Part shown: in pieces, positions 1,780-56,160 of the stretch
How positions within the stretch are numbered: position 1 is the first letter of the stretch
Layout of the letters: each line of letters begins with the position of its first letter
Assembly (NCBI GenBank): GCA_021732385.1
Contig: JAKFVA010000001.1
Span: 1-64,000 of the forward strand
Source of the DNA: Burkholderiales bacterium
GTDB taxonomy: Bacteria > Pseudomonadota > Gammaproteobacteria > Burkholderiales > Burkholderiaceae_C
Length of the DNA stretch: 64,000 nucleotides
Direction of reading: 5' to 3'
The notes under the pieces: model-generated
The model's database searches: none
Told to the model about the DNA's origin: nothing
Seen by the model: only the letters and a program-made list of their open reading frames with translations
Translations under genes and position numbers: made by a program

Positions 1780-2234
1780 CAAATTACTGCATCGATACGA
1801 GCACAATCATCGATGCAGGAGAGCGCTATTACCCTATCGACGTTTTTCCCGCATTTTGGGACAGGCTGGATGCATTGATTCAAGCGGGCAGACTCAGAGC
1901 CCCGCAGACGCTAATCGACGAACTAGAAGCCAAGGACGATGCGTGGCGGGAGTGGGTTTACTCACGCCGAGATGCAATGATCTGGCCAATTGATGACGCG
2001 ATTCAAACGGCGATGGCCCAAGTCATGCCAATCTATGCAGCAATGGTCACCAATTTAAACAGCATCAAAGGCGACCCATTTTTCATCGCGGCATCAATAG
2101 CCAAAAATGCCACGCTGATCACAAGTGAAAAGCCCATAAAAGGCAACATCAAAATCCCAAGGATTTGCGAACAACTGGGCGTCGCTTGGAGTCCATTGTT
2201 AACTGTTGTACGAACAGAAGGCTGGCGTTTCTAG
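1776..2234 (+). CDS. DUF4411 family PIN-like protein, putative toxin
   Basis: This 152-residue protein starts MTNYCIDTSTIIDAGERYYP. The early Asp in CIDTS, the acidic LIDELEAKDD stretch, DPFFIAASIAK near the middle and LITSEKP are the dispersed acidic and hydroxyl positions of a PIN-domain fold (metal-dependent RNase) in the DUF4411 family. It overlaps the XRE-ImmA gene by four bases. Family partners and length fit a two-gene toxin-antitoxin unit with this as toxin. RNase activity is inferred from fold only. Confidence 0.75.
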   Translation: MTNYCIDTSTIIDAGERYYPIDVFPAFWDRLDALIQAGRLRAPQTLIDELEAKDDAWREWVYSRRDAMIWPIDDAIQTAMAQVMPIYAAMVTNLNSIKGDPFFIAASIAKNATLITSEKPIKGNIKIPRICEQLGVAWSPLLTVVRTEGWRF

Positions 2235-49813: not shown

Positions 49814-50359
49814 ATGCCAGCGCGCCCATCGCAAATTTCCAGCATGCAGGAATTTTCGCAGCTCAGCGAGTTTTTGCGTACTGCGGTGGCCGACGAAGAA
49901 GCGCAGCAAATGGGCGACAGCATGAGCGCGTTGGCTGACCACGCTCAGGCCATGACCAGACAAATTCGGGTGGGTATCGCGCGCCAGGACTGGGCGGCTT
50001 TGCTAATGGATTTCTTGACTGAATTGCGCCAACACAAGGCTTTTGTAGTGGCGCTCAGCCCCGGCTGGCGCGGACTGTACGAGTACCCCAATTACCTCAA
50101 TGCACTGAACAATTTCCGCGTACTGATTGGCCAATGGCTGCTGCACATTGCCGAGCCCGAATCGGATGAGCCCACTGCGCCACCCGGCTTGACCGATTTT
50201 GAGCCGATGGTCTGGCGCACCATTGGCGAGGGCATGCTGTTGATTGACATGTACCAGGAACTGGCTCAACGCACTGAGCCCGGCTCGGTTCTTGGCGAGC
50301 TCGACGACACGCGGCTGGCGCGCGCAAAAACCTGGTGGGAGCGCTTGCGTGGGAGCTAA
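49814..50359 (+). CDS. Conserved-looking hypothetical protein (181 aa)
   Basis: This soluble, largely helical 181-residue protein has no recognised domain. Notable segments are FSQLSEFLRTAVADEEAQQM, an amphipathic middle (RVGIARQDWAALLMDFLTEL), GWRGLYEYPNYLNALNNFRV, and the C-terminal RTIGEGMLLIDMYQELAQRT. Codon use resembles the neighbouring core genes. It starts 34 bp after tldD and precedes the aroG leader, so it is probably cotranscribed with tldD. A second ATG eleven codons in is possible. I do not assign a function. Confidence 0.7.
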   Translation: MPARPSQISSMQEFSQLSEFLRTAVADEEAQQMGDSMSALADHAQAMTRQIRVGIARQDWAALLMDFLTELRQHKAFVVALSPGWRGLYEYPNYLNALNNFRVLIGQWLLHIAEPESDEPTAPPGLTDFEPMVWRTIGEGMLLIDMYQELAQRTEPGSVLGELDDTRLARAKTWWERLRGS

Positions 50360-50423
50360 GCGCTATCGCGGTGATAGCTGCATATGCCGCAGGCCAAAAC
50401 AGCCCTGTGCTACAGTCCATGCA

Positions 50424-50492
50424 ATGAACAGTTTGGCTTTTCACTTTTATTTTTATTTCTCAGTCCCCGGCGGACGAGAGGCCTTCGCTTAA
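50424..50492 (+). CDS. Phe/Tyr-rich leader peptide of aroG attenuator
   Basis: This 22-codon frame begins MNSLAFHFYFYFSVPGG and ends REAFA, then TAA at 50490. Residues 6-12 are F-H-F-Y-F-Y-F, encoded by TTT CAC TTT TAT TTT TAT TTC. A run of Phe and Tyr codons immediately before a terminator hairpin and a DAHP synthase gene is the classical design of a ribosome-mediated attenuator that senses charged tRNA-Phe and tRNA-Tyr. It is too short for standard gene calling. Confidence 0.8.
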   Translation: MNSLAFHFYFYFSVPGGREAFA

Positions 50493-50543
50493 GCCAAGCC
50501 CCCCTCGAAGCAACCGCCGGCCCACAAGCCCGGCGGTTTTTTT
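50467..50543 (+). terminator. aroG attenuator: terminator and competing antiterminator
   Basis: Terminator stem CCGCCGG (50514-50520) pairs with CCGGCGG (50530-50536) and is followed by seven T residues (50537-50543). The same 7-mer CCGGCGG also occurs at 50467-50473, within the Pro-Gly-Gly codons of the leader peptide, so it can pair with 50514-50520 instead and prevent termination. A ribosome stalled on the Phe/Tyr codons leaves 50467-50473 free; one that finishes the peptide covers it. Confidence 0.78.
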
Positions 50544-50593
50544 ATGTCTTTTTCAAGCTGCTTTTGCTGTATTCCTGATCTGGAGCCACTTCG

Positions 50594-51724
50594 ATGAACA
50601 CCGACCAACGCACTTCCACCCCCCCTTGGTATCCAGCCTCGTCCCAGCCTGCCGATCGCACCAGCCAGACCGACGACGAACGCATCAAGGACATTACTGT
50701 GTTGCCGCCTCCCGAGCATTTGATCCGCTTTTTTCCGATTCGCGGTACACCCGTCGAGTCGCTAATTGCCAGTACGCGAAAAAGCATCACGCAAATTTTG
50801 CATGGCAAGGACGACCGGCTACTGGTCATCATTGGCCCTTGTTCAATCCACGACCCGGTGGCTGCGCTGGAGTATGCGCGAAAGCTTAAAGTGCAGCGCG
50901 ACAAATACGCCGACACGCTGGAGATTGTGATGCGCGTGTATTTTGAAAAACCGCGCACCACCGTCGGCTGGAAAGGCCTGATTAACGACCCGTATCTGGA
51001 CGAGAGCTTTCGCATTGACGAGGGCTTACGCATGGCCCGCCAGCTTTTGATTGACATCAACCGCTTGGGCTTGCCAGCGGGTAGCGAATTTCTCGACGTG
51101 ATTTCGCCGCAGTACATTGGCGACCTTATCAGTTGGGGCGCGATTGGCGCGCGCACGACCGAAAGCCAGGTGCACCGCGAACTGGCCTCGGGCCTGTCAG
51201 CGCCGATAGGCTTCAAGAACGGCACCGACGGCAACATCCGCATCGCCACCGACGCCATTCAGGCAGCGGCTCGTGGCCACCACTTCTTGTCAGTGCACAA
51301 AAACGGCCAAGTGGCCATTGTGCAAACCGCTGGCAACCCCGACTGCCATGTGATTTTGCGTGGCGGTAAAGCGCCCAATTACGACGCTGCCAGCGTGGCC
51401 ACCGCCTGCAAAGATTTGGACGCAGCCAAGATGCCCCCAACCTTGATGGTCGATTTGAGCCACGCCAACAGCAGCAAGCAGCACCAAAAGCAAATTGAAG
51501 TGGCTAGCGACATTGCCACGCAAATCAGCGGCGGCTCGCGCAGCATCTTTGGCGTGATGGTGGAGAGCCACCTGCAGGCTGGTGCGCAAAAATTCACACC
51601 CGGCAAAGACAACCAGCATGCACTCACTTATGGCCAAAGCATCACCGATGCCTGCCTGGGTTGGGACGATTCGCTGCCGGTGCTCGATGTGCTGTCGCAA
51701 GCGGTGAAAACGCGGCGCGGCTAA
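50594..51724 (+). CDS. aroG: 3-deoxy-7-phosphoheptulonate synthase, class I
   Basis: DAHP synthase condenses PEP and erythrose-4-phosphate at the entry of the shikimate pathway. This 376-residue type I-alpha enzyme has STRKSITQILHGKDDRLLVI, IGPCSIHDP (metal/substrate Cys), VYFEKPRTTVGWKGLINDP, GFKNGTDGNIRIATDA, ILRGGKAPNY and LMVDLSHANSSKQHQKQ. Feedback type (Phe or Tyr) is not decided by eye, but the leader peptide is rich in both. It is the gene controlled by the upstream attenuator. Confidence 0.95.
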   Translation: MNTDQRTSTPPWYPASSQPADRTSQTDDERIKDITVLPPPEHLIRFFPIRGTPVESLIASTRKSITQILHGKDDRLLVIIGPCSIHDPVAALEYARKLKVQRDKYADTLEIVMRVYFEKPRTTVGWKGLINDPYLDESFRIDEGLRMARQLLIDINRLGLPAGSEFLDVISPQYIGDLISWGAIGARTTESQVHRELASGLSAPIGFKNGTDGNIRIATDAIQAAARGHHFLSVHKNGQVAIVQTAGNPDCHVILRGGKAPNYDAASVATACKDLDAAKMPPTLMVDLSHANSSKQHQKQIEVASDIATQISGGSRSIFGVMVESHLQAGAQKFTPGKDNQHALTYGQSITDACLGWDDSLPVLDVLSQAVKTRRG

Positions 51725-51801: not shown

Positions 51802-54800
51802 ATGCAAGGCCAGCTTTTTTCGCAAGATTTTTTACTGCGTGGAATAAGTGAAACGCCACCTTGGCAGGCATTGCATGATGCGCCCGGCAGGTATGCGGAT
51901 TTTTGCAGCGTCCTACAAGCCGTATTCAAAAATTGCGAGGCGCAAACCACCCTGAACGAGGCGCAAACCGAGCAAGAAATCATCGCGCGGGCTTTACGCT
52001 TGTTGGGCTGGGGCCAAGACACGCTGCCGCAAGTCAACATGAGCGTCAAAGGCCGTGAAGACGTGCCCGACCACCTGCTGTTTGCCAGCCCTGCCAAAAA
52101 AGCCGACGCACTGGCTGAGAGCCAAGACCCCAACCGCTACCGCCACGGCATTGCCGTGCTGGAGGCCAAGCGCTGGCTGCGCCCACTGGACCGCGGCGAC
52201 ACCAGTGCCGTGCGCGACGCGCGCGATCCGGACGCGCCGTCTTCCCAAATGCTGCGCTACTTGAGCCGTGCCGACGTGGTGTCCGACCGCGCCATCAAGT
52301 GGGGCGTGCTAACCAACGGCGCGGTCTGGCGGCTGTATTGGCAAGACGCCCGCTCGCGTGCTGAAGAGTTCTTTGAAATCGACTTGACCGCCGCGCTGCA
52401 GTTGCCCGGCTTTCAACCCGAGTTCGACGAAATCGAACCAGCGCATGCCCTCAAACTGTTTTACCTGCTGTTTCAGCGCGAGGCATTTTTGCCGCAAAGC
52501 TGGGACGCCACGGGCCGCAGCCTGCATGCTTATGCGCTGAATGAAGCACGGCGTTATGAAGAAAAAGTGGCGCAAGACCTGGGCCAGCGCGTGTTTACCG
52601 AGGTCTTTCCCCTGCTGGCCCAAGCCTTGGCCAAAGGCGACCCGCAGGCGCAAACCCAGCTAGCCGGTTTCGGCCAGTTCAGCCGCCCGCAATACACCGA
52701 AGCGTACTTGGACGAAGTGCGCGAGGCAACGCTGGTGCTGCTGTACCGCCTGTTGTTTTTGTTCTATGCGGAAGACCGCAACTTGCTGCCGGTGCGCGAT
52801 GCGCGCTACACGCCCTATAGCATGCGCGGCTTGCGGCTGGAGGTGCAAGAAAAGATCGATGCGGGGGCAAAGTTTTCCAGCACCTTGTCGAAGTTTTGGT
52901 TAACGCTTAAAAGCGTCTTTGAGTTGATTGATGTGGGTGACGACAGCATCGGCATGCCCGCCTACAACGGCGGCTTATTCGATCAAAAGCGCTCGCTGCT
53001 GCTGGAGCGAACCAAAGTCCCCGACGCCATCATCGCCCCATTAATCGACGCGCTCTCACGCCGCACCGAAGAGCTGCTACGCGGCTGGATCAATTACCGC
53101 GACCTCTCGGTGGCCCACCTGGGCGGCATTTACGAGCGCCTGCTCGACTACACCTTGGTGCACGAGGTGGTGGCAGCCGACACCTACAAAGACATTGCCG
53201 AGGTCAACCGCATCACCGCGCTGCCCGCCAGCTTTGCGCGCAAAGTCTCGGGCAGTTATTACACGCATGACGACCTGGTGCGCCTGATTCTGCGCGAATC
53301 CATTGGCCTGCTGGCGCAAGAGCGAAGCCAGGTGTTTGGCGCGCATATTGCCAAGCTGAAAAAGAAAACCGCGCTCAACCCCGCAGACTGGGCCGCACTA
53401 GACACGCAAGACCCGGCCAGCGCCTTGCTGCAACTCAAAATTTGCGACCCCGCCATGGGTAGCGGCCATTTTTTGGTGGCCCTGGTGGACGACCTGGCTG
53501 ACCGTGTGCTCGAAGCCGTTAGCAGCAGCACCCACCTGGTCAATGCCCAGCCTTGGGCCGCGCATTTGGTGGAATCGGGCCGCCCCTGGGAAAGTCCGGT
53601 TTCGGCGCGTATTGCCCATATTCGCCGCAGCATCCAGGCCAATGCCCGGCAGCACGGCTGGGCCGTGACCGACGCGCAACTGGACGACCGCCACATGGTG
53701 CGCCGCATGGTGCTGAAAAAATGCGTGTTTGGCGTGGACAAAAACCCGATGGCGGTGGAGCTAGCCAAAACCGCGCTGTGGCTGCATACCTTCACCGTGG
53801 GCGCGCCCCTAAGCTTTCTGGACCACCACCTGAAAACCGGCGACAGCCTGCATGGCGAGCAGTTGCCCACCGTGCAGCGCGGCTTGCAGGCGCTGGGTGC
53901 GCTGCTGCTGCAAGGTGAGTTTGACCGCCTGGCCGTGGTGGGCAAAAACATTGCCCAGGTGGCCGACTTGACTGACGTGGACATTGCCGAAGCGCACCTG
54001 TCCAAACAGCTCGCGCACGAGGCCGACGCGCTGATAGCGCCGCTGCATGCCGTGCTGGACTTTTGGCGCGCCCTGCGCTGGCTCATCCCCGGCTGGCCCG
54101 CCAGCAGCATGGGTCAACTGGCCAAACTCCTCAAAGCAGACGGCACCACATCCAACCCGTTGCTTGCCGGTTTGGTCAAACTGCTGGAGCCCGGCCAAAA
54201 CCTGGTGCACGTGCTGGGCGCTGGCGTGCTGGAAGGGGACGACGCAGACTGCACGGCTGCCAATGCGTTAATCGCCCGCGCCCGTGCCCTGAGCAAAAGC
54301 GAAACGTTTTTTCACTGGTGGACCAGCTTTCCCACCGTGTTTGGCGCAGGCAGCGCCGGCGGTTTTGACGCCGTCATTGGCAACCCGCCGTGGGACCGCA
54401 TCAAGCTGCAAGAGGTCGAGTGGTTTGCCGAGCGCAGCCCGGCCATTGCCGCCCAGCCGCGCGCGGCCGACCGCAAAAAAATGATTGCCGCGCTGCAGGG
54501 CATCAAGATGAAACAAACCGCCACCCACCTGCCACCGCGGGTGGACTTGTGGGCGCACTACCAACGGGCGGTGGAACGTGCCGATGCCAATGCCCGCGTG
54601 GTGGGCAATGGCAAGCTCGGCAGTGGCGACTACCCGCTGCTGGGCGGTGGCGACGTGAACTTGTACAGCCTGTTTGTGGAGCGGGCGCAGGCGCTGGTTC
54701 ACCCCGGCGGCCTGGTGGCGCTGCTCACGCCAAGCGGCATTGCGGCAGACAAAGGCGCGGCACCGTTTTTCAGCAGCCTCAGCGGCAGCGGGCGGCTGGG

Positions 54801-56160
54801 CGCATTGTTTGACTTTGAAAACCGCAAAGTTTTTTTCCCCGACGTGCATGCCAGCTTCAAGTTTTGCACCCTGGTGTTTGGCGGGCTGCAGCGCCAGTTT
54901 GCGCAAACCCGCTGCGCCTTTTACCTGCACCAGTTGGCCGAGCTGGACGACCCCGCCCGCACCCTGGTGCTGACGGCACAAGACTTTCAGCGCGTCAATC
55001 CCAACACTGGCGCAGCCCCCATCTTCAAAAGCCGCCGCGATGCCGACATTACCCTAGCCCTGTACGCCCGCCACCCGGTGCTGGTGCGGCATAGCAGCAG
55101 CAGCGCCAGTCTGGGCACGCAGGCCGATGCCAAGGTATGGCCGGTGAAGTACACCACCATGTTCCACATGACCAACGACTCGCACTTGTTTTTGAAGGCC
55201 GAGGAGTTGAAAGCGGCGGATTTTAAGCCCGCCGCGCTGAACCGCTGGGTTAATGGCCAGGGCGAGGAGGCGGTGCCGCTGTATGAAGGCAAGATGGTGC
55301 AGATGTTTGACCACCGCGCGGCGGATGTGGTGGTGAATGCGGGCAATTTGAAGCGTGCTGCCCAGCAAGAAGCGCTGGATGCCAGTGAAAAGGCAGTCGT
55401 TGCGCGCTATCCCGCGCCGCAATACTGGGTTAGGCACAGTGAGGTTGCTAAAGCCTGGCCAGGCGACTGGTGCATTGCCTACAAATCTGTAACCGCGCCA
55501 AGCAACATGCGCACCATGATTGGTGCCATCGTGCCGCAATGTGGCGTGGGCAACAGCATGGCCATGCTGTTGCCGGAATCTGGTCACGAGGCCAGTTATG
55601 CCACTTGGGCACCATTGCTTATGGCGAATCTAGGTTCTATGGCTTTTGACTTTGCTTTGCGTCAAAAAGTACAGGGGCAAAACCTCAATTGGTTCATCAT
55701 TGAGCAGGCGGTCGTCATCGCCCCCGCCCAATTCCAGCAAACCCTGCCGCCGCGCTTCACCGCTGCCATGCGCCAGGCCGGCCTGATGAACGGCCACCAC
55801 GCCCACCCCACGGTGGCCGACTTTGTGATCCCCCAGGTGCTGGCGCTCAGCTACACCGCTCACGACCTGGCCCCGTTTGCCCGCGACCTGGGCTATGTGG
55901 ACGCCAAAGGCCAGGTGCTGCCGCCGTTGGTGTGGGATGAGGCCGAGCGCCGCGCCCGCCTGGCGGCGCTGGATGCGCTGTTTTTCTGGCTCTACGGCAT
56001 TGGCGCGGCCGACGCCGTTTATATGTTGGACAGCTTTCCCATCGTGCGCGAGCACGACACCGCCGCTTTTGGCCGCTTCCGCACCCAAGAAGACGTGCTG
56101 GCGCTGCTGGATTTGCTGCCCGCAGCGCCTAAAGCCGCTAAAAATGATAGTAAAAATTGA
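51802..56160 (+). CDS. Type IIG-like restriction enzyme / N6-adenine methyltransferase
   Basis: This 1452-residue single-chain protein looks like a combined endonuclease, methyltransferase and specificity protein. The N-terminal nuclease region has PD at residues 89-90 and EAK at 121-123 (VPDHLLF, AVLEAKRW), a PD-(D/E)xK site. The methyltransferase has motif I DPAMGSGHFLVA (about 549-560), VFGVDKNPMAVELAKTALWL, and motif IV NPPW (about 861-864). The 300-residue gap between motifs I and IV holds a large insertion. The C-terminal 450 residues should hold target recognition. It stands alone between aroG and mpl with no helper genes. The final codons (KNDSKN-stop) are repeat-element sequence. Eco57I-like is the closest family. 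A BREX PglX relative is possible, but no other BREX genes are present. Confidence 0.8.
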   Translation: MQGQLFSQDFLLRGISETPPWQALHDAPGRYADFCSVLQAVFKNCEAQTTLNEAQTEQEIIARALRLLGWGQDTLPQVNMSVKGREDVPDHLLFASPAKKADALAESQDPNRYRHGIAVLEAKRWLRPLDRGDTSAVRDARDPDAPSSQMLRYLSRADVVSDRAIKWGVLTNGAVWRLYWQDARSRAEEFFEIDLTAALQLPGFQPEFDEIEPAHALKLFYLLFQREAFLPQSWDATGRSLHAYALNEARRYEEKVAQDLGQRVFTEVFPLLAQALAKGDPQAQTQLAGFGQFSRPQYTEAYLDEVREATLVLLYRLLFLFYAEDRNLLPVRDARYTPYSMRGLRLEVQEKIDAGAKFSSTLSKFWLTLKSVFELIDVGDDSIGMPAYNGGLFDQKRSLLLERTKVPDAIIAPLIDALSRRTEELLRGWINYRDLSVAHLGGIYERLLDYTLVHEVVAADTYKDIAEVNRITALPASFARKVSGSYYTHDDLVRLILRESIGLLAQERSQVFGAHIAKLKKKTALNPADWAALDTQDPASALLQLKICDPAMGSGHFLVALVDDLADRVLEAVSSSTHLVNAQPWAAHLVESGRPWESPVSARIAHIRRSIQANARQHGWAVTDAQLDDRHMVRRMVLKKCVFGVDKNPMAVELAKTALWLHTFTVGAPLSFLDHHLKTGDSLHGEQLPTVQRGLQALGALLLQGEFDRLAVVGKNIAQVADLTDVDIAEAHLSKQLAHEADALIAPLHAVLDFWRALRWLIPGWPASSMGQLAKLLKADGTTSNPLLAGLVKLLEPGQNLVHVLGAGVLEGDDADCTAANALIARARALSKSETFFHWWTSFPTVFGAGSAGGFDAVIGNPPWDRIKLQEVEWFAERSPAIAAQPRAADRKKMIAALQGIKMKQTATHLPPRVDLWAHYQRAVERADANARVVGNGKLGSGDYPLLGGGDVNLYSLFVERAQALVHPGGLVALLTPSGIAADKGAAPFFSSLSGSGRLGALFDFENRKVFFPDVHASFKFCTLVFGGLQRQFAQTRCAFYLHQLAELDDPARTLVLTAQDFQRVNPNTGAAPIFKSRRDADITLALYARHPVLVRHSSSSASLGTQADAKVWPVKYTTMFHMTNDSHLFLKAEELKAADFKPAALNRWVNGQGEEAVPLYEGKMVQMFDHRAADVVVNAGNLKRAAQQEALDASEKAVVARYPAPQYWVRHSEVAKAWPGDWCIAYKSVTAPSNMRTMIGAIVPQCGVGNSMAMLLPESGHEASYATWAPLLMANLGSMAFDFALRQKVQGQNLNWFIIEQAVVIAPAQFQQTLPPRFTAAMRQAGLMNGHHAHPTVADFVIPQVLALSYTAHDLAPFARDLGYVDAKGQVLPPLVWDEAERRARLAALDALFFWLYGIGAADAVYMLDSFPIVREHDTAAFGRFRTQEDVLALLDLLPAAPKAAKNDSKN

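Follow-up and report, generated by a model that had tools for sequence, protein, structure and literature searches.

A predicted ribosome-mediated transcription attenuator with aromatic amino acid codons upstream of the DAHP synthase gene aroG in Burkholderiales

The leader region of aroG in a genome of the order Burkholderiales is very probably a ribosome-mediated transcription attenuator of this gene, which most likely turns aroG off when phenylalanine and tyrosine are plentiful. This reading is based on the anatomy of the region, its conservation together with aroG, conservation at the RNA level, joint variation of the pairing arms and a promoter-like motif. The gene aroG encodes type I DAHP synthase; DAHP synthase catalyses the first step of aromatic amino acid synthesis and supplies all three aromatic amino acids. 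In the analysed stretch of 64,000 nucleotides, hereafter the window, a short open reading frame rich in codons of the pathway products, an intrinsic terminator before the gene and a mutually exclusive antiterminator using the left arm of the terminator were found. The preliminary description of the region as an aroG attenuator is largely supported, with qualifications concerning the nature of the block, the kinetics of the switch, the role of Trp and an earlier case in Corynebacterium.

All coordinates given in that description were found to be exact when read directly from the sequence (Table 1), including the run F-H-F-Y-F-Y-F at residues 6–12 of the leader peptide and the two copies of CCGGCGG, one in the Pro-Gly-Gly codons of the leader (arm A) and another in the right arm of the terminator (arm C). 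The left arm of the terminator, CCGCCGG (arm B), is able to pair with either copy, as had been claimed. Aromatic codons at a density of at least six in seven are unique to this leader among open reading frames of 12–45 codons (628 ATG starts on both strands of the window), and no such frame appeared in 60 dinucleotide shuffles of the window. The window contains a single instance of the exact layout of a word, its reverse complement, the same word again and a T-run, and 60 shuffles yielded no instance. The reading frame of the leader is open upstream as far as TTG at 50244. The terminator hairpin was formed by RNA folding of the window, and in the minimum-energy fold of this single sequence the 5' leader is paired with bases near the stop codon, a candidate for a protector (1:2) hairpin like that of trp. 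A generic promoter and terminator scan of the leader region reported neither element; the terminator was probably missed because its loop has nine bases and the scan is limited to eight. The genome contains a single type I DAHP synthase gene, this aroG, and no type II DAHP synthase gene was found in the assembly, which is 96.85% complete.

Table 1. Features of the aroG leader region in the window
Feature	Position	Strand	Basis and remarks
Predicted extended -10 element (TG-C-TACAGT; TGCTACAGT)	50408..50416	+	Sequence; ends seven bases before the ATG
Predicted transcription start, A of the leader AUG	about 50423-50424	+	Deduced from the position of the -10 element
Leader peptide ORF (MNSLAFHFYFYFSVPGGREAFA)	50424..50492	+	22 codons; ATG at 50424, stop codon TAA at 50490-50492
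Sensor codons F-H-F-Y-F-Y-F, residues 6-12	50439..50459	+	Sequence; six of seven consecutive codons are Phe or Tyr
Arm A, CCGGCGG, 5' outer arm of the antiterminator, within Pro-Gly-Gly codons	50467..50473	+	
Predicted antiterminator hairpin, outer 7 bp and inner helices, leader stop codon inside	50467..50520	+	
Arm B, CCGCCGG, common to antiterminator and terminator	50514..50520	+	
Intrinsic terminator hairpin, arm C CCGGCGG at 50530-50536	50512..50538	+	Sequence, RNA folding, alignment
U-tract, seven T, predicted premature 3' end	50537..50543	+	Sequence
GGAG, probable ribosome-binding site of aroG	50582..50585	+	Sequence
aroG, type I DAHP synthase, controlled gene	50594..51724	+	NCBIfam TIGR00034, 531 bits (cut-off 173 bits); Pfam PF00793

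From this anatomy we infer the transcription start, translation of the leader, stalling, termination in the cell and the relevant amino acids as follows. RNA polymerase would start at or beside the leader AUG, a ribosome would translate the leader peptide behind it, and the pairing of arm B would decide the outcome. Under scarcity of charged Phe or Tyr tRNA (and, in many relatives, Trp tRNA), the ribosome would halt within the sensor codons, leaving arm A and the sequence behind it free; the emerging arm B would then be captured in the antiterminator, and the polymerase would pass and transcribe aroG. When the tRNAs are charged, the ribosome would cross arm A as far as the stop codon inside the antiterminator hairpin, which would thus be held open by the terminating ribosome; arm B would then pair with arm C, and transcription would stop in the U-tract.

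Loci of aroG were sampled from 29 other genomes of the family, taken as best matches, and from 80 contigs of named genomes, of which one (L043) was dropped for having no upstream sequence. An aromatic-rich leader together with three arms was found in 30 of 30 loci of the family set including the window (L001–L030) and in 59 of the 79 testable named loci, so that most orthologous leaders, whose comparison the preliminary description had proposed, keep both the run and the arms. The 20 named loci without such a leader include those of Polynucleobacter (L057, L059, L061), copies of Cupriavidus necator and C. pampae (L056, L060) and distant lineages; three loci (L073, L086, L109) that passed the first filter for open reading frames and had no arms were counted among loci with no leader. 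The Cupriavidus DAHP synthases L056 and L060, 79% and 75% identical to that of the window, have no leader, and the enzyme of Cupriavidus lacunae (L085), 62% identical, has one; regulation may differ between copies.

A covariance model was built from 79 leaders (alignment A1, from which 10 of 89 leaders were left out as too similar), with only the terminator set as paired. The genome of the window contains one full-length match of 81.7 bits, the next match, at 28.9 bits, covering only the terminator end. Matches were found in 195 of 200 sampled genomes of the family, one in each (those of L001–L030 were opened), in 78 of 300 genomes of the order, about ten of these 78 belonging to the family of the window, and, at E 0.01, in 40 of 370 genomes of the class, where seven reached at least 59 bits, three of them from the family of the window. 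Many genomes of the family carry a second or third aroG-like gene and yet have a single match at E 1e-5, so the leader seems tied to one copy.

Outside L001–L030, 51 matches were opened, namely, 36 of the 78 from the order and 15 from the class, including an extra match, L175. The gene aroG lies directly downstream in all 40 opened matches of at least 37.6 bits (36 from the order, 4 from the class), while among the 11 opened matches of at most 36.3 bits this is so only for L134. Nine of these weak matches (L127, L128, L129, L133, L139, L141, L143, L145, L146) have no aroG match and are probable chance terminators; L175 likewise has no aroG match and was set aside. This second match of the model in a genome outside the order (1962-2073, minus strand) consists of a SILVLVLITQPTGAGRASV peptide and a terminator, and looks like a branched-chain amino acid attenuator. 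The genome of L134 (1501-1593) belongs to a different family within the class; there, a CFFYFSFFSPALGG leader with the run CFFYFSFF and a terminator are located 49 nt upstream of a DAHP synthase gene, the product of which is 37% identical to that of the window. This leader may be an independent attenuator acting at this step.

Further comparisons were made on 124 leaders, a set that omits near duplicates (L019, L028, L071), leaders with irregular terminators (L181, L194) and the family members L119, L120, L148, L151, L155, L156, L159 and L168. The aromatic run is kept in this set, with a mean of 6.7 aromatic codons; Phe is present in the run of all 124 leaders, Tyr in 121 and Trp in 82. The designation of the element as a Phe/Tyr attenuator therefore understates the family. 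Trp is found in the run of 55 of 61 close-relative leaders, most of which, by eye, have Trp at a place where the window has Tyr, and on the tree Trp was gained about nine times and lost about nine times. The genome of the window may have lost the Trp input, and the leader family may respond to all three aromatic amino acids; such a three-way sensor would make sense, since DAHP synthase feeds all three.

Behind the aromatic run, it is the RNA rather than the peptide that is conserved, since arm A is read in three frames: frames 0, 1 and 2 are represented in 70, 51 and 3 of the 124 leaders, with nine frame changes on the AroG protein tree. The commonest pair of arms A and B is CCGGCGG/CCGCCGG (39 leaders), followed by CTGGCGG/CCGCCAG (27). 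Paired cells between arms A and B number 809 of 868, compared with 783 ± 3.6 when arms were permuted between leaders (highest 796 in 1000 runs). In alignment A1, 90.6% of the cells of this helix are paired and 20 cells are changed on both sides, compared with a shuffle mean of 5.7, none of 500 shuffles reaching 20; the covariation score is 0.117, and all controls with a slid arm scored lower (best 0.045). Two other counts are higher in slid controls: pairs with double changes number 5 for the +3 slide vs 3 for the true register, and pair types number 11 and 12 for the +2 and +3 slides vs 8. The counts for the true register in A1 are lowered by an arm misplaced by one column in six rows.

The leaders L017 and L018 carry CCGACGG or CCGACGA as arm A and CCGTCGG as arm B, with arm C unchanged; this replacement of G-C by A-U in the A:B helix leaves a G-U pair in the B:C helix, and so helps pairing of A with B only. 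The outer positions 1 and 2 of the A:B helix are paired in only 97 and 98 of the 124 leaders, and changes in arm A on the tree at these positions number 20 and 24. Changes in arms A and B on the same branch of the tree number only five, all positions taken together. The arms vary together, although the changes fall mostly on different branches. The pattern used in the search for arm A (GGCGG-like) is expected in about 62 of 124 shuffled segments, and the core of arm A is thus partly set by the search, as it often matches by chance; the exact motif GGCGG is present in arm A of 114 leaders, compared with 15 expected. In the terminator helix, 97.6% of the cells of the stem are paired across 79 sequences; double changes are confined to a single pair, a number no higher than in shuffles.

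The antiterminator appears to be longer than the 7-mer arms and to form a hairpin containing the stop codon of the leader. Folding of the stretch from arm A to arm B gave a mean z of -0.99 relative to a shuffled interior, with 80% of the 124 leaders below zero, these leaders being related and the tests consequently not independent; the inner antiterminator of the window itself has a z of only -0.31, near zero. In a 4-bp apical helix, one pair, the first, is changed on both sides from G-C to A-U in 5 of 17 leaders (20 had been chosen, and the three whose arm lies in a different frame were omitted). Among the ten leaders used of a second group of 11, an inner 3-bp helix is largely preserved. When the two are folded separately, the antiterminator region reaches a lower energy than the terminator in 102 of the 124 leaders. 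Behind arm A, the sequence GAGAGG is located at 50476-50481, and its first three bases are identical in at least 90% of the 79 leaders of A1 despite the differing frames. Part of this sequence, which resembles a Shine-Dalgarno sequence, may pair near arm B, but it seems to be kept more strictly than pairing requires.

Folding of the full transcript with a ribosome at each of five positions favoured the terminator in at least 115 of the 124 leaders at every position, with mean probabilities of the antiterminator of 0.00–0.08. The same calculation gave 0.00–0.13 for trpL of Escherichia coli and, for E. coli pheL, 0.78 with the ribosome at the first Phe codons. This speaks against a purely thermodynamic switch, as equilibrium folding of the full transcript does not separate a stalled from a finished ribosome. 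With the terminator favoured on the finished transcript whether or not a ribosome is stalled, the switch would have to be kinetic, as computed for trpL, and the order of emergence of the arms would have to decide the outcome.

In folding of RNA that ends before arm C, the mean probability that upstream RNA holds arm B is 0.94–0.96 when the ribosome is at the first or middle aromatic codon, 0.76–0.86 at the last aromatic codon and 0.64 at the stop codon, the latter falling to 0.17 if pairing across the ribosome is forbidden. This probability exceeds 0.5 in 123 of 124 leaders for the first or middle codon, compared with 3 of 124 for the stop codon under the no-crossing rule. For the window alone, the values are 1.00 and 1.00 at the first and middle codons, 0.52–0.61 at the last Phe codon and 0.83 at the stop codon, or 0.38 under the no-crossing rule; the modelled contrast between ribosome positions is weak at late positions in the window itself. 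With the edge of the ribosome footprint assumed at +12, a ribosome whose A site holds an aromatic codon leaves all of arm A uncovered for 749 of 828 such codons. The effect of ribosome position in the earlier proposal, that stalling favours the antiterminator and completion of the peptide blocks it, is seen in folding before arm C is made when the no-crossing rule applies, and is not seen in folding of the full transcript. Masking by the completed peptide would operate through the ribosome at the stop codon; the block concerns the hairpin as a whole.

Close relatives, labelled here 'Comamonadaceae-type' (a label of this report only), comprise L001–L068 and L149, and upstream sequences were surveyed for 123 of the 124 leaders, L097 being dropped for too little upstream sequence. 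In 59 of 61 close relatives, the end of a motif TGNTANNNT lies 6–9 nt upstream of the leader ATG, compared with 1 of 3168 other ATG codons in the same loci; the pattern was chosen after inspection of the upstream sequences. The extended -10 element in close relatives is mostly GTGCTACATT. No -35 element stands out upstream of the -10 element of the window. A -10 element so near the AUG would place the transcription start on or beside the AUG, and the leader mRNA is therefore probably leaderless in close relatives. No Shine-Dalgarno match longer than 3 nt was found before the leader frame in the 61 close relatives, and the aroG starts have a match of 4–6 nt in 56 of 60 relatives (best of nearby starts). 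Among the 62 remaining leaders, the close -10 motif is present in 10, and many leaders of Burkholderia and Oxalobacteraceae have, by eye, TATAAA- or TATAGT-like boxes some 25–45 nt upstream; the leaderless form would accordingly be a trait of some branches.

The hairpin could instead be merely the terminator of the upstream frame of 181 aa (49814-50359), the aromatic frame being incidental. It is located about 155 nt past this frame, and intergenic terminators are ordinary. However, a homologue of the 181-aa protein was found within a few kilobases in 14 of 61 close-relative loci and in none of 63 others, the leader and arms accompany aroG also at loci with a different upstream gene, a promoter-like motif lies between the 181-aa frame and the leader, and arm A would have no role in a plain terminator, which makes this explanation extremely improbable. 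The leader could also encode a small protein whose own function explains the conservation. In favour of this, the aromatic run at the N-terminus is kept, and peTrpL of Sinorhizobium meliloti has been described as a leader peptide acting in trans (PMC7298713), but the arm behind the run changed frame nine times on the tree with the RNA arm unchanged, and peptide lengths and C-termini vary. A small functional protein is consequently a very improbable explanation.

A riboswitch or protein-bound RNA switch, with the frame untranslated, would account for the arm core and the GAG following arm A being conserved in sequence like a binding site, and for the poor Shine-Dalgarno matches before the frame. 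Upstream of arm A, however, it is the aromatic codons that are kept, with Phe, Tyr and Trp exchanged for one another, and no Rfam 15 family reaches the gathering threshold at the leader; the only match in the window is a tRNA at another place. With the limit relaxed to E 5, the leader matched just four sRNA families, far below threshold. A switch of this kind is very improbable, and a ribosome-mediated attenuator remains the preferred reading.

Attenuation of DAHP synthase, which the preliminary description had regarded as much less familiar than control of pheA or trpE, is already described for Corynebacterium glutamicum. According to PMC11802643 and PMC4046766, the aroR leader, with a Phe-Tyr-Phe peptide, precedes the aroF (DAHP synthase) operon, and stalling under Phe limitation raises transcription, with no sensitivity to Tyr. 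The two systems share a leader peptide with aromatic codons before a DAHP synthase gene; by these descriptions, they differ in phylum and in the run, which is about seven codons here vs Phe-Tyr-Phe there, with no Trp named. According to PMC8632094, the uORFC-13-1 motif of Acholeplasma, a predicted uORF with Phe codons and a terminator, precedes the DAHP synthase gene aroF; by its description it is set apart from the aroG leader, having 24 members from one genus and environmental sequences. Attenuation was also proposed for aroF of E. coli (PMC8632094), for aroF of Shewanella (PMC2659441) and for the DAHP synthase-tyrA operon of Vibrio (PMC1173090). For the Burkholderiales family itself, no description was found in Rfam 15 or among the titles, abstract openings and text passages covered by the literature search; one could exist in subscription literature, for example in the survey of attenuators in proteobacteria by Vitreschak and colleagues. 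The name aroG is absent from the main text of a survey of premature terminators (PMC2965389).

The leader pheL of E. coli is similar in having a Phe-rich peptide and a terminator, and in folding before its right arm is made it holds arm B upstream with a probability of 0.88 when the ribosome is on most Phe codons. Unlike the aroG leader, pheL controls chorismate mutase/prephenate dehydratase, its antiterminator is favoured even on the full transcript when the ribosome is at the first Phe codons, and inspection by eye places its antiterminator strand downstream of the stop codon. The trpL transcript (rnTrpL) of S. meliloti begins at the ATG of the leader frame and is leaderless, as reported in PMC7298713; the aroG leader would be similar, the 5' end being known there and predicted here, and differs in that trpL is a Trp leader of trpE(G).

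It is possible, although rather doubtful, that all these leaders represent one attenuator, spread very widely through Burkholderiales and Xanthomonas-like bacteria, which sets the entry step of the whole pathway by reading the charging of all three aromatic tRNAs at once and is translated from a leaderless transcript in the Comamonadaceae-type. If so, the terminated leader of roughly 120 nt would be a small leaderless mRNA that could also act in trans like rnTrpL. The aroG leader provides a testable rule for the control of carbon flow into aromatic amino acids in a large bacterial group. In E. coli, aromatic control follows the route of TyrR/TrpR repression, from which the route via the aroG leader would differ. 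Natural variants, namely, frame shifts, compensatory changes in the arms and gains or losses of Trp, would suffice to test each codon and base pair, and the leader family could enter Rfam as one model.

The 181-aa frame upstream was recognised by neither NCBIfam nor Pfam and was left without a name. The next gene after aroG (51802-56160) encodes a protein of 1452 aa that contains an Eco57I methylase domain and resembles BREX PglX below the threshold, and is likely to represent a restriction or defence enzyme beside the housekeeping aroG.
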